A DNA stretch of 64,000 bases, taken from positions 1-64,000 of the forward strand of contig NZ_JAAHGO010000004.1 of the NCBI RefSeq assembly GCF_010672455.1, given 5' to 3'. Shown here one piece after another: positions 45,419-60,277 of this stretch (within the stretch, counting starts at the first letter, position 1; each line of letters begins with the position of its first letter). A model generated the notes under the pieces. That model ran no database searches. It worked only from the letters and a program-made list of their open reading frames with translations, and was not told the DNA's origin. Origin of the DNA: Okeania sp. SIO2C9. Lineage in GTDB: Bacteria > Cyanobacteriota > Cyanobacteriia > Cyanobacteriales > Microcoleaceae. Both the position numbers and the translations under genes were made by a program.

Positions 45419-46801
45419 ATGCAATTGTCTGATTCAGAGTTAAATACAACAGAAAAACAAGAAACACAACCAAAAGTAGACCCTATTTCATCTGCATCCT
45501 TAGCAGAAGACATGGAACCCGAACGTGGACTTTTGCCAGTACTGAAAAATGGTAAATTTTTAATCCTCTGGAGTGGTCAAGTATTTTCCCAACTTGCAGA
45601 TAAAGTTTACCTCGTACTGACGATCGCTATTATTGCTAATCAATTCCAAGCAGCAGACCAAACTATAAGTAGATGGGTATCGGCAATTATGATTGCTTTT
45701 ACTATTCCTGCGGTGCTATTTGGAGCTGGAGCTGGTGTCTATGTGGATAGGTGGCCGAAAAAGATAGTATTGGTGGCCACAAATTTACTAAGAGGAGGAT
45801 TAGTTTTGATTCTGCCACTGATATTGTGGCTGTCTAACGATTTTAATCTAGGCAATTTACCTTTGGGATTTTGCTTAATGTTACTTTTAACTTTTCTAGT
45901 TTCTACCCTCACTCAATTTTTTGCCCCTGCTGAACAAGCGGTAATTCCTTTAATTGTGGAAAAGCGACATCTACTTTCGGCTAATTCTTTATATACAACT
46001 ACTATGATGGCTTCTGTAATTATTGGCTTTGCAGTGGGGGACCCATTATTAGAGTTGGCTGATAGTTTAGTAAGCAAAATTGGTGTAGGGGAAGCTATTG
46101 GTAAAGAATTGGTTGTGGGAGGGAGTTACGCGATCGCTGGTTTATTACTAATTTTAATCAAAACTGGGGAACAGAAGGACTTAAGTGAAAGGGAACAACC
46201 TCATATTTTGGAAGACCTGGGGGATGGCCTAAATTACCTGAAAAATCATCTTCAAGTTCGTAACGCGATTATTCAACAAATCATTTTATTTTCTATTTTT
46301 GCAGCTTTGGCAGTTTTAGCTGTACGTTTGGCAGAGATTATTCCTGGTATGGAGGCTGAAGAATTTGGATTTTTATTAGCTGCTGCTGGTATAGGTATGG
46401 CTATGGGCGCTGGAATAGTGGGTCAACTTGGGCATTGGTTATCCCATTTTCAACTTAGTCTGATTGGATCTATAGGAATGGCAAGTTCTTTAGTTGGTTT
46501 GTCTATATTTAACCAACAGTTGTGGGTGAGTATGGGTTTGATTGGTCTTTTGGGAATGTTTGGTGCAATAGTGGGAGTGCCGATGCAAACTACTGTTCAA
46601 GCTGAAACTCCTGAAGAAATGCGGGGTAAGGTATTTGGTCTCCAGAATAATGCGGTTAATATTGCTTTAAGTTTACCTTTGGCTTTAGCGGGAGTTGCAG
46701 AAACTTTTTTGGGTTTATCAACTGTTCTTCTTGGGTTGGCAGGGGTGGCAATATTAGCAGGTGTTTTCTTCAGTTTCTTTTCTATAACAACTTTTGAATA
46801 A
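45419..46801 (+). CDS. MFS transporter
   Basis: The protein has 460 residues. A hydrophilic N-terminal tail of about 40 residues precedes about 12 membrane helices, starting at FLILWSGQVFSQLADKVYLVL. The GVYVDRWPKKIVLVATNLLRGG segment is the loop 2-3 motif (D-RW-KK) of drug-efflux-like MFS proteins. The repeat EEMRGKVFGLQNNAVNIALSL is the equivalent motif of the second half. The substrate cannot be told. It follows recO at 173 bases with a small element between, so an operon is possible but not shown. The start is ATG 45419. Confidence 0.88.
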   Translation: MQLSDSELNTTEKQETQPKVDPISSASLAEDMEPERGLLPVLKNGKFLILWSGQVFSQLADKVYLVLTIAIIANQFQAADQTISRWVSAIMIAFTIPAVLFGAGAGVYVDRWPKKIVLVATNLLRGGLVLILPLILWLSNDFNLGNLPLGFCLMLLLTFLVSTLTQFFAPAEQAVIPLIVEKRHLLSANSLYTTTMMASVIIGFAVGDPLLELADSLVSKIGVGEAIGKELVVGGSYAIAGLLLILIKTGEQKDLSEREQPHILEDLGDGLNYLKNHLQVRNAIIQQIILFSIFAALAVLAVRLAEIIPGMEAEEFGFLLAAAGIGMAMGAGIVGQLGHWLSHFQLSLIGSIGMASSLVGLSIFNQQLWVSMGLIGLLGMFGAIVGVPMQTTVQAETPEEMRGKVFGLQNNAVNIALSLPLALAGVAETFLGLSTVLLGLAGVAILAGVFFSFFSITTFE

Positions 46802-46834
46802 TTGTCATTTCAGTTATCAGTTAGGAGTGGGTAG

Positions 46835-46854
46835 GGACGTTGCATGCAACGTCC
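46835..46854. repeat. Perfect 20-base palindrome GGACGTTGCATGCAACGTCC
   Basis: Exact self-complementary sequence 35 bases after the MFS gene's stop. No T-run follows. It may be a REP-like unit or a weak terminator. The rest of 46802-47086 includes a right end of the ATATCATGTCCGG family at 46977-46999. Confidence 0.7.
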
Positions 46855-47086
46855 GCACAGGGAGAAGTAATATCATTTTTGGAAAACACTAACTATAAAG
46901 TCATTGCGACTGTAACGCAGTGAAAGGAAGCAATCTCAAACCCCTGAGATATCTCTTCCATCTATACCCTAATCATAACTATTCAACCAAACATGATATA
47001 AAAAGTAAGAATAATTAACATTAACTTGGCTATTTTTAGCAAAAAAATTATTCTACCTGTTTTGATTAATTAATAACTGAAGTCTT

Positions 47087-47275
47087 ACCGAATAATTAAT
47101 AATTAATAATTAAATAATTCTGGTTTAAAGCCTCCTCTTTTAAGGGAAAAAAAGCGGTTGAGGGATGGCGAGGTCCCCTCGCCATATCCAATCAACCAAG
47201 AGAAGAAATAATATTTCCTTATCTTCCATCCTCTAGGTTTTAACCAGAGGTAATTATTAATTATCCATTAATGAA
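47087..47275. mobile_element. MITE-like element, family A
   Basis: ACCGAATAATTAATAATT, then GGTTTAAAGCCTCCTC, an AGCGGTTG/CAACCAAGAG internal arm and the CCCTCGCCATATCCAATC segment. It ends GGTTTTAACCAGAGGTAATT and TCCATTAATGAA. It is nearly identical in plan to 13533 and 41688. Confidence 0.75.
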
Positions 47276-47524
47276 CCAAGTATAGCATTACTTTTAGGAA
47301 CTGGTATAATAAGACGTACCTTCGACAAAAAAAGATACAGCAGATTCCAAGTATATGAAATATATAACCCATGTGGTATTTTTTCTTAAAATACAAAGGT
47401 TTCAGGAAAGCCGTCTTCAGGCTCCTAAAAACTATAAGGGTTTAGGAAGCTGAAAAATTGACTGCCAGAATCATAAAACTCGGATGGGTACTACTTGTTA
47501 AATAGAACCCATAGGAAATTATAA

Positions 47525-47827
47525 ATGCACCTAATTTCAATCCGTAATCTCCGTGCCGATCTAGCACCACATCAGCATGATGTTCAAAACCAAGTTAATG
47601 CTTGGTACGCAACTGTTAAAAGTGCTGAGTGGAAAAATTTAGAAGAAGTTCGCAGAATTTATCGAGATGCTGAAGCTGTAGGAAATTTTACGGTTTTTAA
47701 TATTAAAGGAAATAGTTACCGTTTGATTGTTGGAATTAATTACGAAAATCAAACTATTTACTATAAATACTTTTTAACCCATGCTGAATATGACAAGAAC
47801 AAGTGGAAAGATGACCCTTACTTTTGA
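47525..47827 (+). CDS. higB: HigB-like RelE-superfamily mRNA interferase toxin
   Basis: The protein has 100 residues. The blocks VNAWYATVKSAEWKNLEEVR, AEAVGNFTVFNIKGNSYRLI and VGINYENQTIYYKYFLTHAEYDKNKW match the HigB (COG4680) toxin family. These cleave mRNA on the ribosome. It overlaps the downstream antitoxin by 17 bases, the usual toxin-first order of higBA. It is complete and has no broken motifs, unlike the other toxin loci in this window. Confidence 0.92.
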   Translation: MHLISIRNLRADLAPHQHDVQNQVNAWYATVKSAEWKNLEEVRRIYRDAEAVGNFTVFNIKGNSYRLIVGINYENQTIYYKYFLTHAEYDKNKWKDDPYF

Positions 47828-48212
47828 CGAGATATATTATCGTGATTTACTAATCAAATTTACTCCAAAAGTTATAGAAACAGAACTAGAATACGAAGCG
47901 TATTTGGCAGTATTAGAAGAGTTGACTTTTGCTAAAAATCTTACCCAGGAGGAAAAAGCTCTATATAAATTGTTAGTTTTGTTAATAGAAAACTATGAAA
48001 CTGAAAATTATCCGATGACACCGGTAGAGCCTTACGAAATTTTACAGCATTTAATAGTAGCAAGCGGAATTAGTCAACAAGATTTAGTGGGAATTATTGG
48101 TTCTGATGAGGTAGTTTCTCAGCTTATGGATGGTAAACTTTCTTTGAATAACTGGCAGTCAAAAGCTCTAGCAGATTATTTCCAAATCTCTCCAACTATT
48201 TTTCAATTGTAG
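47811..48212 (+). CDS. higA: HigA-like antitoxin
   Basis: The protein has 133 residues from ATG 47811 (MTLTFDEIYYRDLL); an earlier in-frame ATG at 47781 is less likely. The TELEYEAYLAVLEELTFAKN helix and the PVEPYEILQHLIVASGISQQ stretch are followed by a C-terminal helix-turn-helix (DLVGIIGSDEVVSQLMDGKL). This is the long HigA form with an N-terminal toxin-binding region. The pair probably autoregulates through a site in the 47400-47520 region. A GGGAACA heptamer run follows the gene at 48255-48280. Confidence 0.9.
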   Translation: MTLTFDEIYYRDLLIKFTPKVIETELEYEAYLAVLEELTFAKNLTQEEKALYKLLVLLIENYETENYPMTPVEPYEILQHLIVASGISQQDLVGIIGSDEVVSQLMDGKLSLNNWQSKALADYFQISPTIFQL

Positions 48213-48347
48213 GTCTTAAGTAGTCGTGCAAAATTAATTTCCTAGTTGAAAGAGGGAACAGGGAACAGGGAACAGGAAGAAAAATTGATAATTTCTCGAT
48301 AAGATTGGATATTTATAGTAAGATGTTCAATTAATTTTGCATAAGCA

Positions 48348-48476
48348 GAACCTATCCCACTAATAAGATTTTTGCTAAAAACTCTAAATATTTTGAGAGT
48401 TAAAAACCAAAAATTCAGTTTTTTAAACAGATTTTACTTAAAGAAATAAGTTTGTTAAAAATAGTGGGATAGGTTC
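48348..48476. mobile_element. 129-base MITE with GAACCTATCCCACTA ends
   Basis: The left end GAACCTATCCCACTA and right end TAGTGGGATAGGTTC are exact 15-base inverted repeats. Further pairing (TTTTTGCTAAAAAC versus GTTAAAAATA) extends inward. ATAAG occurs on both sides (48341-48345 and 48477-48481), offset by two bases on the left, a possible target duplication. There is no coding capacity. Confidence 0.8.
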
Positions 48477-48490
48477 ATAAGTACTTAGTT

Positions 48491-48645
48491 ATATCATGTC
48501 CGCTGGTATCGTTTGTGTAAAACCAAGGGTGAATATTTACAGGAAATTTACGTTTTTTCAAGCTTTTAAGCCTTCTTCCGTCTTCCTTCTTCCTTCTTCC
48601 TTACCTTCACTATACAATAACGATGCTACCGGACATGATATTAAT
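48491..48645. mobile_element. MITE-like element, ATATCATGTCCG family
   Basis: Left ATATCATGTCCGCTGGTATC; right GATGCTACCGGACATGATAT. The centre carries CTTCTTCC repeats. It shares its left 80 bases, inverted, with the right end of the element at 6588-6878. Confidence 0.7.
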
Positions 48646-48680
48646 GGATAAAGTTGATTTCGATAGATTTTCCTGCATAC

Positions 48681-49018
48681 CATATAATTGCAAATACGTC
48701 AAACGAGCGTATAGGTAACTTGGAAAAATTAGTTCGTCATCCTTAAATCAATATGAGGCGATCGCCTGTCTAAGCAACGAAATAACAAGTGTTTCAGGCT
48801 TTAAAATCTTTTTAGGTAATATAACTCCCTTGGATCTTAATTTGTTGATTTTATCATGGAAAAGCTGAAACTATTGAAACTATGTTGGCGATTTCAGGAA
48901 ATTTTTCCTATTTTTTGTCAGAGATTGATGACAAAGTTTAAAATTTTAAAATCAGAAGTTCAGATTGATAATTAAAACTTTTCACAAGTAGCGATCGCTA
49001 AAATAAGCAACGAGGACT
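48681..49018. repeat. 340-base dispersed repeat, copy 1
   Basis: It matches 61966-62306 along its length (TTGCAAATACGTCAAA, TCTTTTTAGGTAATA, GATTGATAATTAAAACTTTTCA). An internal hairpin TTTGTC-loop-GACAAA is at 48914-48935. A partial third copy (GTGTTTCAGGCTGTAAAATC) is at 49178-49225. No reading frame is conserved. A small structured RNA is possible but not shown. Confidence 0.75.
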
Positions 49019-49323
49019 ATAGTTATTTCCAGAGGAACAGTAGTTAACGAAAAACTTCGACAAACCTTGTTGTTAAAGTTTCAATTTAATAGAAGTAGGC
49101 AACAGGCAAATTTTTAGGAAATAGGAAATTAAGTCTGTTCAGCAAATGTTAACCTGGGGGCATTACAGGGATAATAGGTGTTTCAGGCTGTAAAATCTTT
49201 TAAGGTAATAAATACCCTTGGATTATTCTTTGCTTATATTATTATGCTGGTGAGTACAAAGTTCTTCTAAAATAATGATTAGCTTTTAAGGCTGAAAGTA
49301 TTACTGGAAAATGCTTACAGCAC

Positions 49324-49675
49324 TTACCGAATAATTAATAATTAGGGTCTTGCTGAAAAAGTCTTTTTTAAGAAGTAGGGGAGCGGGGGAGTAGGGGAGT
49401 AGGAGAGAATTTTCTTGCCCAACTATGCGCTAAAAATTCGCTCCTTTTTGAGCATGAAGAGCTGAAAACCATGTATTTTTTCAATACCTAAAAAGTCTAA
49501 AACCTTTATATGGTAATTATTTGATATTTATTCAGCAACCCCTAATTAGTAATTAAATAATTCTAGTTTAAAGCTTCCCCTTTTAAGGGAAAAAAAGTGC
49601 TAGGATATTTCCTTCTTTTCAATCCTCTCGGTTTTAAGCAGAGGTAATTATCAATTATCCATTATCAATTAATGA
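49324..49675. mobile_element. MITE-like element, family A, split by another element
   Basis: ACCGAATAATTAATAATT precedes, and AATTAAATAATTCTAGTTTAAA follows, a foreign 200-base element. The right part ends GGTTTTAAGCAGAGGTAATT and CCATTATCAATTAATGAA. It lies between the repeats at 48681-49320 and the hemB 3' side. Confidence 0.75.
49344..49543. mobile_element. 200-base element with AGGGTCTTGCTGAA ends, nested
   Basis: Left AGGGTCTTGCTGAAAAA and right TTATTCAGCAACCCCT are inverted repeats. AATT flanks both sides (49340-49343 and 49544-49547), a 4-base target duplication. A relative with an ATTT duplication is at 54285-54519. It contains GTAGGGGA repeats in the centre. Confidence 0.8.
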
Positions 49676-49760
49676 AAGTTCTTTGGGAAAAGTTTCTAAC
49701 CTTGAAACTGCTGAAAGACCTATCTAGCAATAGTGATTCCAAGAACTTTGTACTGCCTAA
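49676..49760. repeat. AAGTTCTTTG / CCAAGAACTTTGTACTG inverted repeat
   Basis: The left AAAGTTCTTTGGGAAAAG pairs with the right GATTCCAAGAACTTTG. Relatives occur at 49253-49325, 53888-53908, 56408-56575 and 57975-58145. Its right end lies 15 bases from the hemB stop and could serve as a transcription end. Confidence 0.5.
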
Positions 49761-49774
49761 ATTGGAATTTTTCC

Positions 49775-50824
<1,050 letters not shown>

Positions 50825-51088
50825 TCAAAAATTCACATCTAGTCAATGGAGATTAGGGAGCTACAAAAAGTCAGGATTTTCAGCAGAGAAGGGCGGAAAA
50901 ATCAAGGGGGACGGCAGGAATTTTCAATAGAGTTATTCACCACAAATAGAAAATATTCCATGGCATAAATAAATTTGAGAGATACACCTAACACTTTCGG
51001 GTGAATCTCTCTAAAATCAAATATTTTTAGGTATAATTAAGTTGGGTATTTTAAAGTGACGTAGGTTTGCCAGAAATTAGAGCTGAAC

Positions 51089-51790
51089 CTACACTTCTTT
51101 TTTTTGATTACGTTTTAACAAAGAAAATGCTCCACAAGCAGTAGTAAATAAGCTTAATATAGTTGTTGGCTCTGGAGTAGAAGCAGTCAACTCAACATTA
51201 TCAATTAAAAGTCCAGAATTAACTATAGTATCTCCTACGTTTACAACTCCAAATCCTAGGGTGTAATTTGCAGTCTCAGAAAAGGTAAAAGAAAAGCTTT
51301 GATATCCTGTCTCTTCAGAGACAGGAGTCATGGAAGTAACAAAATTAGAGTTAGTATCAGCTAAAAGCTCTAAGCTTGTAATAGAAACAAAGGCAGAATC
51401 GTTAAAAAATTCCTCAGGAGTAAATTCATTTGTTAAAAAGTTAAAATCAAAAGTTAGAGTATCTCCAGCTTCTGCAAAAATAGTTTGCTTGATACCAGAA
51501 CCTATAGTAGCGTCAATGTTTAATGAACTGTCGATATCTCCTAAACCCAAACCAAGGAAAGCTTCAAGCTCAGATTCTGAAACTCCAAAATCACTATTCA
51601 TTAACGCATTGAAATTACCATCTGAAGGTGCTGTACCAAAACTACTGTCTTCTATACTTGTATCTCCAATTGTACTCCATCCAGTGAAACCGTTTTCAAA
51701 ACTACCATTTACAATTGCACTAGCACCAGAAAAAGTAGATAAAGTAGCTAGTGTAGCACTAGCAGTAGCGATTGAAACCTTTTTGAACAT
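51089..51790 (-). CDS. PEP-CTERM sorted secreted protein
   Basis: The protein has 233 residues. A signal peptide (MFKKVSIATASATLATLSTF...SGASA) precedes a beta-rich body starting IVNGSFENGFTGWSTIG, as in many DUF642/NPCBM-like secreted proteins. The C-terminus has PEPTTILSLFTTACGAFSLL and a KRNQKK basic tail, an exosortase-type PEP-CTERM signal. The product is exported and probably processed by an exosortase, then surface-bound or released. The role is unknown, perhaps in the sheath or matrix. No exosortase gene is in the window. Confidence 0.85.
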   Translation of the reverse strand: MFKKVSIATASATLATLSTFSGASAIVNGSFENGFTGWSTIGDTSIEDSSFGTAPSDGNFNALMNSDFGVSESELEAFLGLGLGDIDSSLNIDATIGSGIKQTIFAEAGDTLTFDFNFLTNEFTPEEFFNDSAFVSITSLELLADTNSNFVTSMTPVSEETGYQSFSFTFSETANYTLGFGVVNVGDTIVNSGLLIDNVELTASTPEPTTILSLFTTACGAFSLLKRNQKKEV

Positions 51791-52077
51791 AATTCAATTC
51801 TTTTGTAAAATTTATTTTTATTGCCTAGAACCATAATCTACACCCCCCGAAAATTATGCAACCCCTTCTGGCTCAACTTTACAGAATCTTTAAATTTTTC
51901 TTAAGATGTTTTTGGCGATTAAAATCAGTGGAATTAATTATTAGATAACAGTTTGAGGTATCTATCTATGGCAAGAGGGATTATGAAGTTTTGATGAAGC
52001 AAAATTAGATAATACATCCGGGAAGTTTTGGAGTGCTAAGATCGAATGTTCATCAAAATAGCTTCACCTTATCACGG

Positions 52078-52322
52078 GGAGTACGTCAAAGTTCTAAAGG
52101 AAACTTCATTAGTACCAGGATTATAAAGAGTATAGGTAGCATTTCCCGGCAAACTTCCCACATTACCTACTCCTATAACCTGACGGAGTGTTGTCAAAGT
52201 TTGAGTAGATGATGTTGTCTCAAGAGCACCTACTTCAGCTCCCAACTTTGTCACCCCACTATTCACCGAACCATTTTCCAACTGATATTTAAAAGCTAAA
52301 CCAGACCGACCACAAAATAAAA
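52078..52322 (-). pseudogene. Duplicated 3' fragment of the degenerate metallophosphoesterase gene
   Basis: About 245 bases nearly identical to 55310-55552, the 3' end of the gene at 55301-56032. The encoded run FCGRSGLAFKYQLENGSVNS to YTLYNPGTNEVSFRTLTY is shared. The 5' part of the gene is missing; the similarity stops after FLFCGR/LFCGR. It sits 31 bases beyond the end of the amine oxidase gene. It is a recent partial duplication and probably not functional. Confidence 0.85.
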
Positions 52323-52352
52323 ATAAGATTAGCATTCTTCATTAAAACCTTT

Positions 52353-53576
52353 CTAAACTGAATAAGCAGTGTAAATAGTTTGTAAGGCTCTTTGCACAAC
52401 ATCTTCATCTGAAAGTGCCGATAAAGCTAAAGCTGGTGGCCCCCCATTTAAAACCATAATGATAGGTTCTTTAATGTATGGATAAAGATTAAACCATTGG
52501 TTAAACTGCCCCCGAGGAAGATCGTTTTCTGGAGTTAATATCCAGGTAGTTGATAAATCCCAGAATGGCCGATCGAATAACAAATAAACTTTGTCTAAAG
52601 TCCCCATTCCGAGTCGATCGATAGCTCGCTGCTTATTTTTAGGCAATACAGGATTGAACTTGATATCTCCTCTTTTGAGTACACCAAGGGGAACTGTGAC
52701 CAAAACCGCATCAAAAGATTGATTATTAATTTTCTCAAAACCCAGTGTCACCCCTTTTTGAGTTCTCGAAATTTCCTTAACCAGTGTATTCAATTTAATT
52801 TTGTAGTCTCCCTTGAAGGCTGCCAAAATACCTGCGTATCCATCTGGGAATATGACATCGGGACCATCATAGTCGTTCACGAAGAGATAAGCCCACTGAT
52901 TGATTTGATCTTCATTTGTTCCAGCCGTGTGCTGGATACTAACGACATTTTCCAACCATCCTGGGGCATCGCGGTCCCTAATTTTACGCCCACCACGTCC
53001 TCGAATAATGTAATCCTCTTTTTCCGTTTGGATAAGTCGCTGACCTAGCCCCTCGGCCAAATCCACAAGGGGGTTTCCGTTTATCCCATGAATCCAACTA
53101 GCTCCCAGTTCCAATGGTACTCCCAGTCGTTCATCTGTCCAGATCCGTCCCCCAATGCGATCGCGTGCTTCAAACACAGTAACTTCTCGACTATTTGTGG
53201 AAAGTTTATGTGCTGAAGCAAGGCCGCTCATTCCCGCACCAATAATTGCAATCCTATCAGCACTACCTTGCAAAATTGAGTTAGCTGCCCGAATACCGGA
53301 TTCGTAGGCAGCATGAACTGTACTGTTGTAGTTTGGAAAAGTAGCTTCACCAGCAAAAAATATCTTCTTGTCAATGGGTTGCTCCAGGGCACGAATGTCA
53401 CTGCGCGAAGCTCCCTTTGGGATGTGTGAATATGAGCCATAAGTGTAGGGATCGCGGCTCCAATTGGTTCGGATGTAGCCCAGAAGTTTTTGGTTTTTTG
53501 CCTGAAAATTGTGCCAGGGCAAGAAATTCAAAAGTAAGCCACTTGTAACTCCATGTAGTAATAATCGTCGATTCAT
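52353..53576 (-). CDS. Flavin amine oxidase-like protein, apparently circularly permuted
   Basis: The protein has 407 residues. After a signal-like start (MNRRLLLHGVTSGLLLNFLP) come residues 32-101 with YIRTNWSRDPYTYGSYSHIP, then IFFAGEATFPNYNSTVHAAY. This is the segment that normally ends monoamine oxidase-type enzymes and contacts the FAD. Only then follows the FAD-binding start, RIAIIGAGMSGLASAHKLS (GxGxxG at 113-118), VFEARDRIGGR and the LGASWIHG motif. The protein stops at ALSDEDVVQRALQTIYTAYSV, just where the moved C-terminal block would usually begin. All expected parts are thus present, in permuted order. The RR start suggests export. It is an oxidase of amines or amino acids; substrate unknown. 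Confidence 0.8.
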   Translation of the reverse strand: MNRRLLLHGVTSGLLLNFLPWHNFQAKNQKLLGYIRTNWSRDPYTYGSYSHIPKGASRSDIRALEQPIDKKIFFAGEATFPNYNSTVHAAYESGIRAANSILQGSADRIAIIGAGMSGLASAHKLSTNSREVTVFEARDRIGGRIWTDERLGVPLELGASWIHGINGNPLVDLAEGLGQRLIQTEKEDYIIRGRGGRKIRDRDAPGWLENVVSIQHTAGTNEDQINQWAYLFVNDYDGPDVIFPDGYAGILAAFKGDYKIKLNTLVKEISRTQKGVTLGFEKINNQSFDAVLVTVPLGVLKRGDIKFNPVLPKNKQRAIDRLGMGTLDKVYLLFDRPFWDLSTTWILTPENDLPRGQFNQWFNLYPYIKEPIIMVLNGGPPALALSALSDEDVVQRALQTIYTAYSV

Positions 53577-53631
53577 TTTTAGCTAGATTTATCACAGGAT
53601 CATTAGTTACTTTAGCCTAAATTTGATAAAT

Positions 53632-53705
53632 CAGGACTTACGCAAATTGACTTTTAAACCACCACCTGTAGGGGCGAATGGCATTCGCCCTCCCTATAAG
53701 TCCTG
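53632..53705. mobile_element. 74-base palindromic element with 5-base target duplication
   Basis: CAGGACTTACGCA at left; ATAAGTCCTG at right (right end partly decayed). TAAAT flanks both sides (53627-53631 and 53706-53710). The centre is a GGGGCGAATGGCATTCGCCC palindrome. It is the same family as 41883-41973. Confidence 0.8.
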
Positions 53706-53955
53706 TAAATATTAAGTGTAGTCAAAAAAGTGTTTGGGGAGGGGTTGAGCGATCGCTTATCTGCTATAATTTTCCTTATTTAGATTCCACAAAATTCTCA
53801 ATCTGTCGAACTACTGATTAGGGAGCTACAAAAAGTCAGCATTTTCAGCAGAGAAGGGCGGAAAAATCAAGAGAGAATGTTTTTTTCTATTGAGAACTTT
53901 GTACTGTCCAATAAAACAATAAAATTTGTACAACTTAATTTTTACATGAATCATA

Positions 53956-54165
53956 ATGAAGAAAAAATTGATTCTTCTTTTAAAGAATATTTCCCTTATA
54001 GCTGAACAAAGAAAACAAAAACCAACCGCACAAAAAGAAAGTCAAAGATGGCTTGATAGTCTCATCAAAACCGAGTCAATCATTCTTTATGACTTGCAAG
54101 TAGGGGTAAATATAGCATACTTTTCTAGGCAAAGGCTTTTAAATCTTGACAGAAAAGCATTATAA
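53956..54165 (+). pseudogene. Possible transposase remnant
   Basis: A 69-residue frame. Its middle, QKESQRWLDSLIKTESII, resembles a segment of IS4-type transposases as I recall them. The rest matches nothing I know. No inverted repeats or other transposase parts are seen nearby, so this is a guess. If correct it is a small internal fragment. Confidence 0.3.
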
Positions 54166-54284
54166 AATTAGTTGGCACGCTCATTGCAGCTTCTCTAGTT
54201 TTAAGGCAAGCTAGTTATTTGGTATAAATATAATAGAGTTGAAAGAGAGTTGAGATGATAAGATAGCTCTTTAGGCTAATATTT

Positions 54285-54519
54285 AGGGCTTGCTGATTAA
54301 ATATAAAAGTATTTACAGATAAAGGTTTTAGCCTTTTTGGGGTCGAAAAAAGTACACCTATTTCAGTCTAAAACGCTCAAAAAGTTAGTATTTTAGGCGC
54401 ATAGTTGGGCAGAAAAATAAAGAGACAATTCTTACTCCTAACTCCTCTCAATTCCCTTTTCTCCTGTCTCCTGTCTCCTGTCTCCTACCCTCACCCATAA
54501 GATTTTTTCAGCAAACCCT
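54285..54519. mobile_element. 235-base element with AGGGCTTGCTGA ends
   Basis: Left AGGGCTTGCTGATTAA; right TTTTTTCAGCAAACCCT. ATTT flanks both sides (54281-54284 and 54520-54523). The centre includes a CTCCTGT heptamer run (54462-54485) and a block shared, inverted, with the element at 49344. It lies just upstream of the broken Uma2 gene. Confidence 0.8.
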
Positions 54520-54582
54520 ATTTAGATTTTTTAGTCTGATATTCTAGATTAGTAACGAAATAACTATATCCCCTAAGTAAAA

Positions 54583-55138
54583 ATGTTAACTATTGGAACA
54601 CAAAAAAGCGATCGAATTAGCACAATTACTAATACAACTTGGGCTGAATATATTAGTTTAGACTTGCCCAGTAAACGAGTCTCATTTCGCAATGGAGTTA
54701 TTACTATCGTGTCCCCAGGACGTAACCATGAATTGATTGGTGATTATATCAGGTTGATTATTTTGGCGTATTGTCGTAATCTTAATATTCCTGTTTTCAC
54801 CTTTAATCAAACTACTCTTAAGGAAGAAGGAAAAGAAGGGAAAGAACCTGATGTAGCTTACTGTTTTGAAATAGACAATAGACTTGCCAGATTTGGCAGT
54901 AGAAATAAACCTAACATCAGGGAGTATAGACGATTTAACTAAATATCAATACTTAAAAATTCCTGAAGTTTGGCTATGGGAAAACAATAAAATTAGATTC
55001 TTTGTTTATGGTGATTCAGGATATTTAGAATTGAAAACAAGCAATTCTCTGCCTAACTTAAATAGCGATCGCGTGACAACAATTGTCAATAGTTGTTTTG
55101 GTAAAAGTGTTTTAGAAGTAGAAAATTATTTCCGTTAA
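54583..55138 (+). pseudogene. Uma2-family endonuclease gene with a frameshift
   Basis: The first frame (54583 to about 54875) gives TTWAEYISLDLPSKRVSFRNG, then VSPGRNHELIGDYIRLII, then KEPDVAYCFEID. The product then continues in another frame as LPDLAVEINLTSGSIDDLTKYQYLKIPEVW and an EVENYF end at 55138. One base has been gained or lost near 54875-54885 (GACAATAGACTTGCC). The rejoined protein (about 185 aa) has the normal Uma2 order, so this is a recent break or a programmed shift; I see no slippery site. Confidence 0.8.
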
Positions 55139-55300
55139 AGCTTAATTAAAAAATCACAAAAATGAACCAAAATGATTATTTTTTTACTATCAGAATTGAT
55201 AAATACAAAAGTTATCGCTGCCATAAAAACTTCTGATGGCGAGATTAATTGAAACTTAGAGCAGGAAGTCTAAATAGCAATATTTAAAATCTCCATCGCT

Positions 55301-56032
55301 TTAGTGTGGGGGGTACGTCAAAGTTCTAAAGGAAACTTCATTAGTATTAGGATTATAAAGAGTATAGGTAGCATTTCCGGGCAAACTTCCCACATTACCG
55401 ACTCCTATAACCTGACGTGGTGTTCTCAAAGTTTGAGTAGATGATGTTGTCTCAATAGCACCTACTTCAGCTCCCAACTTTGTCACTCCACTATTCACCG
55501 AACCATTTTCCAACTGATATTTAAAAGCTAAACCAGACCTACCACAAAATAAATTATTAACGCCAAAACGCATTAATCTATCTAACATTTGTATCGGTGG
55601 AGTATCGGGAGTCAATTTATCGCTTACTCCCAGAGTGCTGCCGTGAATTAATAAACAGTCAAGTTCAGAAAAACCAAAAGGCAAATTTCTCAACCATTCT
55701 ACTGTTTCTCTATCCACATTATCCCATAATTTTTTCACACTATCTATGCCATATTCTGCTATTAATTCTGTCGGTTCAGCTGTGGTAGTTAATCCATGTA
55801 AAATCAAACATTGTTCTTCCCACCATCCCGTACAAATTTGGGGTATAAGTTCATTTTTTTTGGGATAACGTACTCGCTCTACTAATTTTTTGCAATCTAT
55901 ATTTAGCCCGACTAAATCTCCTAAAATATATAAAGATTCCACATAATATTTCTGTTTTTTAATATCAGCAAGTACAGCTTCATAAGCTGTGATGTTTCCT
56001 TGGATTCCAGTTAAAATTGCCCAATAATTCAT
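55301..56032 (-). CDS. Degenerate metallophosphoesterase-like protein
   Basis: The protein has 243 residues and is related to the intact-looking gene at 56622-57437. The usual metal ligands are largely gone: S/CxHGN is TGIQGN at the start, GNWD/GCWDED is CTGWWEEQ, and CGHTH is CGRSG. GDLVG, LLIHGS and the NVGSLPGNATYTLYN end remain. It is probably a non-catalytic paralogue. The frame is open throughout, and its 3' third has been copied to 52078-52322. A low-complexity SVNSGVTKLGAEVGAIETTS segment replaces part of the family's C-terminal region. Confidence 0.75.
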   Translation of the reverse strand: MNYWAILTGIQGNITAYEAVLADIKKQKYYVESLYILGDLVGLNIDCKKLVERVRYPKKNELIPQICTGWWEEQCLILHGLTTTAEPTELIAEYGIDSVKKLWDNVDRETVEWLRNLPFGFSELDCLLIHGSTLGVSDKLTPDTPPIQMLDRLMRFGVNNLFCGRSGLAFKYQLENGSVNSGVTKLGAEVGAIETTSSTQTLRTPRQVIGVGNVGSLPGNATYTLYNPNTNEVSFRTLTYPPH

Positions 56033-56056
56033 ATAATTTTTTGCTTTTTTTTAGGT

Positions 56057-56400
56057 TAGATGATAATGAATAATGAATAATGAATAATGAATAATGGATA
56101 ATTACCTCTGGTTAAAACCGTTATTGATCGAATAAGCTGTTAAGCATTTAAACGATGTATTGTGATTTTTAGCAAAATCACCAAATATTTGCTGTACGAG
56201 ACTTTTACTTGAATTATCTATTTTTAAAATAGGCAATCTAAATGGTTAACCGCTTATAAGAAAATATGATTTCTTCTCTTGGTCGATTGGATATGGCGCA
56301 GGTTTCCTTGCCATTCCACCCTACGGGAAGCTCCGCTAACAACCGCTTTTTTTCCCCTTAAAAGGGGAAGCTTTAAACCAGAATTATTCAATTATCATTT
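56057..56400. mobile_element. MITE-like element, family A, inverted
   Basis: ATAATGAATAATGAATAATG repeats, then ACCTCTGGTTAAAACCG, an interrupting stretch (56130-56265), the TTGGTCGATTGGATATGGCG and AAGCTCCGCTAAC internal arm, and TAAAAGGGGAAGCTTTAAACC. It is followed by a copy of the GTACAAAGTTCTT inverted repeat at 56408-56575 and a TTAATTATTAATTA run. Confidence 0.65.
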
Positions 56401-56621
56401 ATTCATTACTAGACAGTGCAAAGTTCTTAGAATAACTATTGCTAGCTAAGGCTTTCAGCGATATAAAGGTTCAAAACTTTTTATTCAGAGCTGTAAGTAC
56501 TATAAGCCTTTTTCAGTAATATTTTCAGTCTTCAAAGCTAATAGTTTTTTTGCATAACTTTGTACTCTCCAGTATTAATAATTAATAATTAATTATTAAT
56601 TATTAATTATTAATTATCTTT

Positions 56622-57437
56622 TTATCTTTCACATATATGAGTAGGATCGTCAGCTTTTTCAGCAAACTCTAAACCCCTAGCCAAACGCCAAGCAAAAATT
56701 TCTGGCAACCCCTTATTAACTATAGCTTCACAAGTAAGTTGATAATTGTATGGAATCTCTCGAATATTTACTTCTCCTGTTTCATTGTCATAAATAACAT
56801 AAGTAGCATTCGGTCTGCCATGACGAGGTTCTCCTACAGAACCAACATTAACAATTTTTTTCAGAGGAGCAATACAACTGTTTGACTCTAAATTTTCGCT
56901 CCCAAAACTACTAACTTTAACTAATAATTGACCAGCATCAAGAGTCCGAACATAAGGCACATGAGTATGACCGCAAAACAATACATCAGCACCACTACTA
57001 ATTACTCTTTCAACTGCTAAAAATCCATCTAAATCTGGCAATAAATATTCATGGTTACTATGAGGACTACCATGAACAAAACACATATTTTCCTCTTTCA
57101 AAGTATCAGGTAAAGAACTTAAATATTCTCGCGTTTCTGGATGAATTTCTCGATCAGTCCATTCGTGGGCTAACTTGCCACGTTTTTCTGCTAATAAAGA
57201 AGGATAACTACATTCACAAGAATTTAATCCCTCCACAATATCCTCATCCCAACAACCTAAAACCGTGGGAATATCTAAACTGCGAATTTGCTCGACAACC
57301 GCGTTAGGATGAGGACCATAACCAACCAAATCTCCCACACAGAAAATTTTCTCTGCTTTCTGTTTTTCTATATCTATTAATACAGAATTTAAAGCTTCGT
57401 AATTGCCATGAATGCAAGACATAACTGCGATTTTCAT
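56622..57437 (-). CDS. Metallophosphoesterase, YfcE/Mre11-like calcineurin fold
   Basis: The protein has 271 residues from ATG 57437; an in-frame start at 57470 adds 11 residues without family character, and GAGGAAG sits before 57437. The motifs are MSCIHGNYEAL, CVGDLVGYGPHPN, VLGCWDED, CFVHGSPHSNHEY and LFCGHTHVPY, then VNVGSVGEPRHGRPNATYVI. The first Asp is Cys (SCIHGN), which I recall as normal for this cyanobacterial subfamily. It is a phosphodiesterase or phosphatase of unknown substrate. The tail ADDPTHICER is conserved in the family. The degenerate paralogue at 55301 lies just downstream on the same strand. Confidence 0.88.
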   Translation of the reverse strand: MKIAVMSCIHGNYEALNSVLIDIEKQKAEKIFCVGDLVGYGPHPNAVVEQIRSLDIPTVLGCWDEDIVEGLNSCECSYPSLLAEKRGKLAHEWTDREIHPETREYLSSLPDTLKEENMCFVHGSPHSNHEYLLPDLDGFLAVERVISSGADVLFCGHTHVPYVRTLDAGQLLVKVSSFGSENLESNSCIAPLKKIVNVGSVGEPRHGRPNATYVIYDNETGEVNIREIPYNYQLTCEAIVNKGLPEIFAWRLARGLEFAEKADDPTHICER

Positions 57438-57679
57438 ACTAATTCTTCCTCTTTCATTAATGGAATTCAAAAGTCAAAAGTCAAAAGTAAAAAGTAAAAT
57501 TTTATAGCTCAAAACTTTAATGCTTCAGTAATTTTAGCAAATTAACAGAATTCAAAAGTTAAAAGTCAAAAGTCATGCATTATGATTTTATGGCTCAAAA
57601 CTTTGATGCTTCAGTAATTTCAGCAAATTATTCGACATCTAAAGTTTGGAACTATTTGTAACATTCTTTTTTCAAATTG

Positions 57680-57870
57680 GCATAATGGATAATTACCTCT
57701 GTTTAAAACCGTTATTGATTGAATATAAGGAAATATTATTTCTTTTCTTGGTAGATTGGATATGGTTAGGAAACCCATCCATCCCACCCTACGGAAAGCT
57801 CCGAAGATAGACCGCTTTTTTCCTTTTAAAAGGGGAAGCTTCAAGGCGCGAATTGTTTTAATATTTAATT
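57680..57870. mobile_element. MITE-like element, family A, inverted
   Basis: ATAATGGATAATTACCTCTG, TTTAAAACCG, then TTGGTAGATTGGATATGG, GGAAAGCTCCGAAGATAGACC and AAAAGGGGAAGCTTCAAGGC. AAAAGTCAAAAG heptamers and a direct repeat (CTCAAAACTTTGATGCTTCA) precede it at 57474-57620. A further GTACAAAGTTCT repeat is at 57975-58145. I see no gene in 57438-58158. Confidence 0.65.
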
Positions 57871-58158
57871 ATTACAGCAGATTTTATCTTAGTATGGTAC
57901 AGCTATGACAGCCTAGAAGGCTGTGTTACAAATAATATTTGTACAACATAAACTTGGAATCTGTTGTAATTATTTAACTAGACAGTACAAAGTTCTAGGA
58001 ACAATTATTACTAGCTAAGACTTTCAGCTATCTAAAGGTGAGAAACTTTACATTGGAAACTTTAAGTGCTGTAAGCCTTTTCCAATAATACTGTCAGTAT
58101 ACTCTCCGATTCTAAATTCTCAATTCTAAATTTGTACTCTTCAGTATTTAATTATTAA

Positions 58159-58926
58159 TTATTCATTATTCATTATTCCTAATGTTTCTTTCACTTGTTG
58201 TTGATAAGCTAAAATTGCTGTTTCTGGCAAACAACAATCTTGTAAACTTTCTGCCAAAGCTTTTTGATTTAAGTTATTACCAAAAACTTCAATTCCACTA
58301 AAACGTTCTGGTCTACCTTCTAGCCATCTTGGTAAATTTAATTCTTGATATTCAGTCTCTTTTCCTAGTACAAAATCAAAGTAAAAAGCACGTCCGTCAG
58401 CAATATCAAAAATTGCTTTGGCACGAATAATTTGACCATAAGCTCCAGCAGTTAATTCTTCATACCAAAACATATCTAAACTTGCCGGGTCGATGACTTG
58501 ACCCTGGGTGGGCGATCGCCAGAATTGACAGTTATTAATATTACTTTCAATAGCATATCCTTCTACAGTTTGGTTCGCCCACTGATGCCATTCGCTATTT
58601 TCTGTTCCCGGTGGGATAATGGCAATACGACTGCTAGGAATGTTCTCAAGCAGTGATGACATTGCATTTAGCTCTAAATAAAATCCTAATTCAATGAAAG
58701 CAACTGTACTATTAGCAAGATATTCTAGGAGTTCTGACTGTTGAGCATCAGTAATAATTTTGAGATTGGGAAAATCTGTAGCAAGGCAAGTGTGGTCAAT
58801 GGGAACATTGCCAGTACCGGGACTGAAATAAACAGCAGGACTATCTTTCGGGATTTGTTCCCGAATAAAACTTGTTTTGCCGACTCCCGGTGGGCCCGCT
58901 ACTACAGTAATTATAGGTTTTGACAT
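58159..58926 (-). CDS. CobW/P47K-like GTP-binding protein
   Basis: The protein has 255 residues. The N-terminal P-loop is VVAGPPGVGKTS (residues 8-19). The CobW C-terminal-like part includes GAYGQIIRAKAIFDIADGRAFYFDFVLG and the RFSGIEVFGNNLNQKAL segment. The CxCC metal motif of classical CobW/COG0523 chaperones is not seen, so metal binding by that route is doubtful. The family handles zinc, cobalt or other metals for target enzymes. It stands 720 bases downstream, in the direction of transcription, of nothing obviously related. The end LGIMNNE runs into an AT-rich repeat. Confidence 0.75.
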   Translation of the reverse strand: MSKPIITVVAGPPGVGKTSFIREQIPKDSPAVYFSPGTGNVPIDHTCLATDFPNLKIITDAQQSELLEYLANSTVAFIELGFYLELNAMSSLLENIPSSRIAIIPPGTENSEWHQWANQTVEGYAIESNINNCQFWRSPTQGQVIDPASLDMFWYEELTAGAYGQIIRAKAIFDIADGRAFYFDFVLGKETEYQELNLPRWLEGRPERFSGIEVFGNNLNQKALAESLQDCCLPETAILAYQQQVKETLGIMNNE

Positions 58927-58984
58927 TTGGCGTTGGTAATTTGAGGTATGATATCATTTTCCGTTCTACTAAACTTACCCAAAC

Positions 58985-59125
58985 TTACCCATACACGATA
59001 ACCTCCGGTTAAGCGTAAGCTATCGCATAGGTTTTGGAGCTAGCTTCCTGCTTCACTGAAGACCACCGACCGCAGTCTGTAACTTATCTTCTCCACAGGC
59101 TTAAAATCGCTTGGAACTCAAGCTA
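58985..59125 (-). ncRNA. Candidate omega RNA at the 3' end of the TnpB remnant
   Basis: Read on the minus strand from the tnpB stop, the sequence forms short hairpins (CTTGAGTTCCAAG; ACTGCGGTCGGTGGTCTTCAGT) and contains AAGCAGGAAGCTAGCTCC. In IS200/IS605 elements the guide RNA for TnpB overlaps and follows the tnpB 3' end. The position and structure fit. The end of the element, and so the guide, cannot be fixed by eye. Confidence 0.35.
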
Positions 59126-60277
59126 CTGATGCACATAGTTTTTCAAGTTGACAGCAGCATTAAAATCTCTATCAGCTTCAAAACCGCATTCACTACATTC
59201 ATAAGTTCTCATACTTAAAGGCATTTTCTGTTGATGCCCACAGTTTGAACATATTTGAGAACTTGGATAAAATCTATCCGCTATGACTAATTCACTACCG
59301 TACCATTCACATTTGTATATAAGTTGACGTTTAAACTCATAAAAACCACAGTCTGCTATGGCACTTGCTAGTTTATGGTTTTTTAGCATTCCACTTACGT
59401 TTAAATCCTCAATTACTATGGTGCTGTGGTTTAAAGCTCGCCCATGTTGTGAGTTTATGTAGTGTATCTGCTCTGATATCAGCTACTTTTTTGTGTGATG
59501 AAGCTAGTTTTTTTACTGCTTTGGCTCTATTTTTTGTTTGCGTAGCATTCCGCAGTAAACCAGGTTCTTTTTTATTGACATGGCGTTGATAACGAGTTAA
59601 TCGTTTTTGGGCTTGTTTGTAGGCTTTAACGTTAGCGTAGGTTGTTCCATCACTACAAGTTGCTAGAGAATTTATACCAACATCTACACCGATAACATCT
59701 CGTTTACTTGGTGCGCGTTCCGCAAGCGAGCTGTCGTCGTCGCGGGGTCGCATCCGCTTTTTGTAGTAGGGTTGGGTTGATAATCATATTTAAAACTAAT
59801 ATACCAATCACCTGCGCGTTTGGATATTCTCACATTTTTGACTGGTACAGAGGGTAAGATTTCATAAGTTTTTACTATTCCTATTCTTGGTAGTTTAATA
59901 TAGTTTCCTTTCAGGATATTAATACTTCCTTCTAGATAGAAACTATCTTTTTTCCCTTTTTTCTTGAATCTAGGGAATCCACGTTGGGGAATAGTTAAAA
60001 AGTTTTTAAATGCCCTGTCTAAGTCTCTTAAAGCTTGCTGGGGGGCACACTTTGATACTTCATAATACCAAGGATTTTCACTTTTAACTTCAGCAATTAA
60101 ACGTTTATGCAAAGTGATAGCACTAGGCCGTTTCTTAGTTGATTCGTACTTCTGTATACAAGTTGCTAATCCCCAATTATAAGCATGACGAGCTACACCT
60201 GCGTGTTTGGCAAGTATTGTTTTTTGGTAATTGTTAACTTTTAACTTGGTCTTGAAGTATTGCATTTGAACACGCAC
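59123..60277 (-). pseudogene. tnpB: IS200/IS605-type TnpB (OrfB) gene, interrupted
   Basis: Three consecutive frames make one TnpB. 60277-59760 gives the N-terminal part (FKTKLKVNNYQKTILAKHAG, WYYEVSKCAPQQALRDLDRAFKNF). 59753-59409 gives DVIGVDVGINSLATCSDG with the first RuvC Asp. 59420-59123 gives IVIEDLNVSGM with the Glu, then CSNCGH...CSECG zinc ribbon and DRDFNAAVNLKNY with the last Asp. A 48-base GC-rich palindromic repeat (59710-59757) breaks the first junction, and a one-base shift breaks the second near 59400. A GCATTCCGCA repeat piece lies in frame (LLRNATQ). It was once active; all catalytic residues are still readable. Confidence 0.9.
59710..59757. repeat. GC-rich palindromic repeat inserted in tnpB
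   Basis: GGTGCGCGTTCCGCAAGCGA... to GGGGTCGCATCCGC, the reverse complement of the repeat at 9352-9403 with a few changes. Another relative lies at 3712-3757. It shows that this short repeat moves, or is copied, into genes. Confidence 0.8.

Follow-up and report, generated by a model that had tools for sequence, protein, structure and literature searches.

A probable natural circular permutant of the flavin amine oxidase fold in Okeania sp. SIO2C9 and its relatives in other bacteria

The permuted gene and its parts

The window, a stretch of 64,000 nucleotides of Okeania sp. SIO2C9 DNA that was analysed as a whole, carries on its reverse strand an ORF at 52353-53576 with 407 codons counted from its ATG, encoding a protein here designated P0001. 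The coordinates, strand and length given in the original prediction are correct. The stop-to-stop frame is 409 aa, only 2 codons longer than the ATG-started protein, and so no FAD domain is concealed upstream of the gene. The following parts were distinguished:

52353..53576 (-): whole gene, P0001, a 407-aa circularly permuted, predicted FAD amine oxidoreductase
53499..53576 (-): predicted twin-arginine-type export leader, residues 1-26 (MNRRLLLHG...FQA), boundary set by eye
53271..53483 (-): moved block, residues 32-102, model positions 354-424, C-terminal in linear relatives (profile match)
53265..53270 (-): joint between the old C-terminus (model position 424) and the old N-terminus (model position 4), residues 103-104
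52968..53264 (-): normal N-terminal FAD (Rossmann) part, residues 105-203, model positions 4-102
52944..52967 (-): scar, residues 204-211, replacing model positions 103-155 (helical substrate subdomain)
52365..52943 (-): substrate domain and remaining FAD domain, residues 212-404, model positions 156-345
52590..52592 (-): Lys329, position of the conserved flavin amine oxidase (FAO) lysine near flavin N5, by alignment to LSD1 (6vyp)
52353..52364 (-): stop codon and new C-terminus (residues 405-407), separated by 8 model positions from where the moved block starts

The moved block, which ordinarily makes up the last fifth of such a protein, bears the motifs RTNWS..GSYS..FFAGEAT..NSTVHAAYESG and contains Y49 and T86, which we take to be the equivalents of LSD1 Y761 and T810. 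The Rossmann part has GxGxxG at residues 113-118 and RxGGR at 140-144; G113, G115, G118, R140, G142, G143 and R144 are invariant in all eight alignment rows.

Rotated order relative to linear relatives

P0001 matches the Pfam family Amino_oxidase (PF01593) in three stretches, with an E-value of 1.4e-68 and a score of 232.7 bits (cut-off 19.8). A phmmer search of the PDB places LSD1 (6vyp chain) at the top, with LSD2 and the spermine and polyamine oxidases also among the best matches. Residues 106-195, 228-400 and 37-101 align to residues 110-199, 384-562 and 581-657 of the human LSD1 chain, respectively, the moved block being the weakest of the three segments (i-Evalue 4e-6).

Against a reference profile built from 21 linear relatives only (425 model positions), residues 32-102 of native P0001 fall on model positions 354-424 (85.2 bits), residues 105-203 on 4-102 (118.1 bits) and residues 212-404 on 156-345 (161.3 bits). 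The order of N-terminal FAD part, substrate domain and C-terminal FAD part that is normal for PF01593 is absent, the order in P0001 being 354-424, 4-102, 156-345; we therefore class the protein as a permuted variant of the family and not as an ordinary member. Residues 32-101 had been predicted to be the usual C-terminal end of such proteins, placed ahead of the GxGxxG motif, and the profile match agrees. The accompanying statement that the protein ends where this block should begin is correct to within 8 of the 425 model positions.

When P0001 is rotated in silico at residue 104, the two separate stretches of 161.3 and 85.2 bits become a single stretch of 260.2 bits (model positions 156-424), with a further 117.7 bits at positions 5-102. 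Against LSD1, two pieces of 71.3 and 29.2 bits likewise merge into one of 113.3 bits. The linear model is used once, with no duplication, leaving uncovered 8 positions at the new termini and the stretch 103-155. The latter is replaced by 8 residues (204-211), so that approximately 45 residues of the helical substrate subdomain are lost.

Among 38 NCBIfam families matched, the 25 listed are all under cut-off and mostly cover the N-terminal FAD motif alone, and PHROGs gives two weak matches to the Rossmann part only. Order-bound annotation conceals permuted proteins: profile libraries return pieces only.

Distribution of the permuted form

A scan of species genomes finds this order across residues 1-406/407 in Okeania, Hydrocoleum and an Opitutaceae MAG (62%); at 52% each, it also occurs in an uncultured Roseibium and in a Rhodobacteraceae MAG. 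Full-length permuted relatives are found in Okeania/Hydrocoleum, in Pseudomonadota (alphaproteobacteria at least) and in the Opitutaceae MAG. Because other bacteria retain the same rearranged enzyme, the gene is the product of a stable natural rearrangement, not a defective copy.

Six of 59 genomes near the window (its own included) carry the permuted gene, among them four of the five genomes of the same genus. Across larger groups the permuted form is thinly spread. Even draws at E <= 1e-40 gave matches in 3/386 genomes of the window's phylum (1 permuted, its own, and 2 linear), 7/349 of the phylum of the Roseibium genome (4 permuted, one of these of the second kind described below, and 3 linear), 4/385 of its class (3 permuted, 1 linear) and 14/87 of its family (4 permuted, 10 linear). 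The phylum of the Opitutaceae MAG gave 1/288, the MAG itself, and the family of genome G571 gave 4/17, all permuted. At E <= 1e-25, 13/119 genomes of one pseudomonadotal family (that of genome G1232) matched, with nine proteins of group II, two of group III and two linear. A class-wide draw with a group II/III profile at E <= 1e-30 matched 7/229 genomes and returned one permuted protein, which was already known.

When all fetched loci were pooled and identical ORFs removed, 82 distinct ORFs matched the linear profile: 29 permuted, 50 linear and 3 partial, a set that is biased because most loci were fetched with permuted queries. The permuted ORFs comprise 18 of group I (to which P0001 belongs), 9 of group II and 2 of group III. 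The original prediction had suggested comparing the order of matches in homologues, and this order is rotated in all 29. Conservation outside the source genome, the two further permuted groups and the loss of approximately 45 residues go beyond that prediction. A phage origin was rejected: tblastn of P0001 against 50,697 phage records gave no match, and four scans of viral contigs yielded nothing beyond two contigs with the linear form and a single frame that is partial and distant. Plasmid records matched in 178 cases, and the four inspected for order (H1, H3, H4 and H8) are all linear.

Anatomy of the permuted groups

The moved block is present as a single copy in 29/29 permuted ORFs. Its start falls at model positions 345-354 and its end at 421-424; the N-block begins at positions 3-6, and the new termini range from an overlap of 2 model positions (L051) to a gap of 11. 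These common boundaries indicate that one and the same loop was opened in all three groups, and that the old ends were joined at one and the same place. An RR motif and a hydrophobic stretch, recognised by eye and by pattern, precede the moved block in 18/18 group I ORFs, and R3 and R4 are invariant in 8/8 alignment rows; groups II and III start directly with the block, without a leader.

The stretch between the N-block and the M-block is 59-62 residues long in group I, 94-97 in group II and 110 in group III, and in linear ORFs it is 96-179 in one set and 102-106 in another. The loss of approximately 45 residues is thus confined to group I. The position of the catalytic lysine (Lys329) is K in all 29 permuted proteins and that of Tyr49 is Y in all 29; Thr86 is retained in 19 of them and replaced by M in 9 and by S in the remaining one. 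Group II (L063, L068-L076) consists of leaderless, full-size, putative permuted amine oxidases from 9/119 genomes of the G1232 family, with Met in place of Thr86. Group III (L078 and L079, same family) is a third, very divergent permuted form represented by two near-identical sequences.

Predicted structure

AlphaFold2 gave a pLDDT of 36.4 with 7 close alignment rows. With 13 rows, including two linear homologues entered as pieces, the pLDDT was 72.7 and the pTM 0.75; the four other models of this run were weaker (pLDDT 63.4-50.3). Structure prediction had been proposed as a further check on the permutation, and in the 13-row model the old termini appear linked by a short loop. Strand 72-74 (FFA), helix 88-102 and strand 108-112 (the AIIGAG side) follow in succession, an arrangement that a joint completing a beta-alpha-beta unit would produce; as modelled, the old C-terminal helix runs straight into Rossmann strand 1. 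A stretch of weak confidence at residues 205-238 coincides with the missing helical subdomain. Foldseek ranks chains of LSD2, maize polyamine oxidase and LSD1 highest (E-values down to 3.4e-16). Among the 50 matches listed, the TM-score is 0.52-0.60 of the query and the rmsd a large 5.6-20 Å, values to be expected of a superposition bound to chain order.

Selection, phylogeny and number of origins

Fifteen pairs among six Okeania/Hydrocoleum copies have dN/dS values of 0.191-0.316. For the window copy against L041, dN/dS is 0.124 in the moved block (residues 32-103), 0.279 in residues 104-407 and 0.567 in the leader. These values show that the permuted gene is maintained and that the Okeania copies are under purifying selection.

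The last tree was built from 46 rotated cores, with 28 distant or near-identical rows left out (25 named rows of the same kind were left out of an earlier tree test). Group I forms one clade in this tree (support 93/92, unstarred) and in 95% of bootstrap trees. Its sister is a clade of linear alphaproteobacterial proteins with RR leaders (L053, L128, L130, L131 and L134-L136; 100/96, starred), and the two together have a support of 95/90 (starred). The first tree, which was larger, requires 2 changes for group I, and 70% of its bootstrap trees have the group as one clade. The Okeania, Hydrocoleum and Opitutaceae copies are nested inside group I, beside the copy of the Rhodobacteraceae MAG (99/97, starred), making it likely that Okeania acquired the permuted gene by horizontal transfer. 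The Opitutaceae and Rhodobacteraceae copies lie on MAG contigs (L042 is 6.6 kb) that may be misbinned.

Constraining groups I, II and III to a single origin lowers the likelihood by 16.3 (p 0.035) and 17.0 (p 0.031) in two trees. A single origin for all three is thereby weakly rejected, the weakness being due to the long branches of groups II and III, which stand together in the first tree. Common origins of groups I and II (p 0.30 and 0.136) and of groups II and III (p 0.47 and 0.32) are not rejected. The linker motif GAR[RS]V is common to L051, L052, L057 and group II, and the joints of L052 and group II are equal in length and share GARRV; this likeness speaks for a common origin of groups I and II. 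GARRV-like letters ahead of a Rossmann strand are common. Repeated natural permutation of the FAO fold at this one loop is a tentative proposal to which we give only just short of even odds. It would involve two or three independent events, one giving the exported, shortened group I that spread from alphaproteobacteria to marine cyanobacteria, and one or two giving the leaderless, full-size groups II and III of a single pseudomonadotal family. If it is true, the FAO fold has a preferred natural opening site, and linking the original C-terminal helix with Rossmann strand 1 is a repeatable evolutionary move.

Proposed enzyme and its export

We consider P0001, with a probability of roughly 0.85, to be a complete natural circular permutant of the FAO fold: reopened, exported by the Tat pathway, active as an amine oxidase, of alphaproteobacterial origin and horizontally transferred. 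The original prediction, a flavin oxidase permuted in nature and provided with an export-type leader, is upheld by the rotated order, the 29 permuted ORFs, purifying selection and the AlphaFold2 model. The new termini would lie in the loop that leads from the last helix of the substrate domain to the 'RTNW..GSYS' strand. A few residues would connect the old C-terminal helix with Rossmann strand 1, leaving the FAD-binding beta-alpha-beta unit continuous in the model, and the putative twin-arginine leader would stand ahead of the new N-terminus. The permutation probably arose on the branch leaving the linear Tat-exported alphaproteobacterial amine oxidases, alongside the loss of approximately 45 residues, and the permuted gene would then have reached Okeania by horizontal transfer.

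We infer that P0001 binds FAD, is exported and has oxidase chemistry. Given the putative twin-arginine leader, the protein most likely takes up FAD while folding in the cytoplasm, with export by Tat to follow. The exported enzyme would most likely oxidise an amine by hydride transfer to FAD, with reoxidation by O2 giving H2O2; Lys329 is expected beside flavin N5, and Y49 and T86 of the moved block would line the flavin face. With low confidence, we infer a polyamine-like or lysyl amine substrate because of the likeness to LSD1 and polyamine oxidases.

No CxxCH motif was found in frames of at least 70 aa within positions 46001-60000 of the window, nor in L038, L041-L043 and L093; a few CxxCH frames are present in L092 and L094-L097. 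In a study of related enzymes, Tat-bearing FAOs without an adjacent cytochrome c are mostly fast with O2, with one exception, and a lysine near flavin N5 is tied to the O2 reactivity of FAOs (PMC12224317). With no cytochrome c gene beside it in the window, P0001 would be nearer to the Tat-only, mostly O2-reactive class.

Alternative explanations

The rearranged, repeat-bearing neighbourhood around the gene and a C-terminal end 8 model positions short of the moved block could be taken as signs of an inactive remnant, in which the N-terminal block is an extra domain and the true C-terminus was lost. The moved block, however, supplies precisely those model positions that are missing, and the architecture is repeated in other species, at dN/dS 0.19-0.32. 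A remnant with an added domain, the outcome that the original prediction had set against itself, is rejected since the N-terminal block is the sole copy of the C-terminal block in 29/29 permuted ORFs, and we regard it as highly improbable. An assembly chimera or sequencing artefact is more improbable still: many of the relatives come from draft genomes or MAGs, but independent assemblies (Okeania, Hydrocoleum, Roseibium, further Pseudomonadota and the Opitutaceae MAG) all have the order, in a lone open frame with the same joint among permuted relatives, and it was rejected on the number of separate assemblies that share the order. It is unlikely that the conserved permutant is no longer an amine oxidase and has become, through loss of the helical subdomain, a redox carrier or an FAD protein that acts on a different substrate. 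Such a loss could alter or abolish amine oxidation, the residues in question are absent from every group I member measured and from no linear relative compared, and no neighbouring gene points to amine metabolism. Against this change of function, Lys329 and Tyr49 are kept in every permuted protein and Thr86 in 19 of 29, and groups II and III retain 94-110 residues in the stretch concerned.

The route of permutation is a separate matter. Tandem duplication followed by trimming at both ends, as originally proposed, would be one such route. When the 16 genomes with a permuted gene were searched with the linear profile, the best match in each was the permuted gene itself, in rotated pieces; among the matches listed, the others were weaker and lay in long frames resembling other FAD oxidases, with no close linear paralogue, tandem copy or half-trimmed intermediate. 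The duplication route thus gains no support from these genomes, and the one overlap at the new termini (L051) is of 2 model positions. Fission and fusion, or cut-and-paste of the last exon-sized block, would fit this absence of intermediates, the near lack of overlap and the leader that remains at the front, for which the duplication model would need an extra internal deletion. On the other side, no separate half-genes came to light either, in searches not aimed at them, and duplication is one of the two main models of permutation (PMC3320104). Fission and fusion or cut-and-paste is a serious contender, with somewhat less than an even chance. The route is testable because close linear sisters exist (L053, L128-L136).

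Relation to known systems

As a permuted flavin amine oxidase, P0001 shares with PF01593 (LSD1/LSD2, polyamine oxidases, MAOs and bacterial FAOs) all blocks of the fold, the GxGxxG and RxGGR motifs, the GEAT block and the lysine near N5; it differs in having the C-terminal block first and in missing approximately 45 residues of the helical subdomain. In contrast to enzymes with MAO-type covalent FAD, it is without the covalent-FAD cysteine, the position of which we take to be Ser48. The linear Tat-type amine oxidases of alphaproteobacteria (L053, L128, L130, L131 and L134-L136), the nearest linear relatives of group I by the tree, and those of cyanobacteria (L013-L016) have a putative RR leader and motifs as in group I, but the order is normal and the helical subdomain full (N-to-M gap of 102-113, versus 59-62 in group I). 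The Tat-exported FAOs NicA2, Pnao and relatives (PMC12224317) have the FAO fold and lysine, and probably the RR leader, in common with P0001; by contrast, P0001 is permuted and has no cytochrome c gene alongside within positions 46001-60000 of the window.

Known natural circular permutants include saposin/swaposin, transhydrogenases, cpRAS GTPases and DNA methyltransferases (PMC3320104, PMC2430557). P0001 would represent the same kind of event, an intact fold with relocated termini, its structure being a prediction. Among the matches listed in searches of the open-access literature, there is no report of a natural permutation of the FAO fold and no flavin amine oxidase among known natural permutants. 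PMC12667903 and PMC11757225 make no mention of flavin, FAD, oxidoreductases or amine oxidases in their main text. New here are the permutation in the FAO fold, its spread, the predicted leader on the new N-terminus and the possible repeat; circular permutation and the enzyme family are known. Flavin amine oxidases include LSD1, MAO and the polyamine oxidases, and serve as biocatalysts. A permutant kept by selection would show that this FAD fold survives the joining of its two ends and the opening of another pair elsewhere. It would also offer fusion proteins a ready natural scaffold whose new terminus is close to the substrate domain.

Neighbouring genes and repeats

Neighbouring genes were surveyed at 12 loci of 13.2-13.5 kb, from which 30 frames were scanned in Pfam together with 10 frames of the window; the neighbour frames were picked simply as the longest ORFs, a crude criterion that certainly let in some false ones. 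No shared gene neighbourhood and no pointer to a substrate was found across these loci and window frames. Directly before the permuted oxidase at one locus (L092, 1951-7390) are co-directional PhzF-like, KAS III-like, PF14518 iron oxygenase-like and DUF6999 genes, which look like a small biosynthetic cluster that is absent at the other loci surveyed.

Two direct repeats are located near the permuted gene of the window. A 246-bp repeat (52076-52321 and 55308-55553, 95.5% identity) places, just downstream of the permuted gene, a partial copy of the end of a metallophosphoesterase-like ORF (55301-56032); both copies are present in L037 and L038, and one is matched in the fetched stretch of L039. 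A 56-bp repeat (50851-50906 and 53816-53871, 98%) flanks a 2.9-kb segment containing the permuted gene and an ORF at 51089-51790, the end of which presumably resembles a PEP-CTERM signal. This repeat pair is a possible insertion or duplication scar. An IS605 OrfB/TnpB-like gene at 59123-60277 is decayed and split over three ORFs (HTH, OrfB and TNB domains), and a Uma2-family gene at 54583-55138 is split across two overlapping frames. At 47525-48212, a HigB-family ORF is followed by an overlapping 143-aa ORF without a Pfam match, likely forming a toxin-antitoxin pair.
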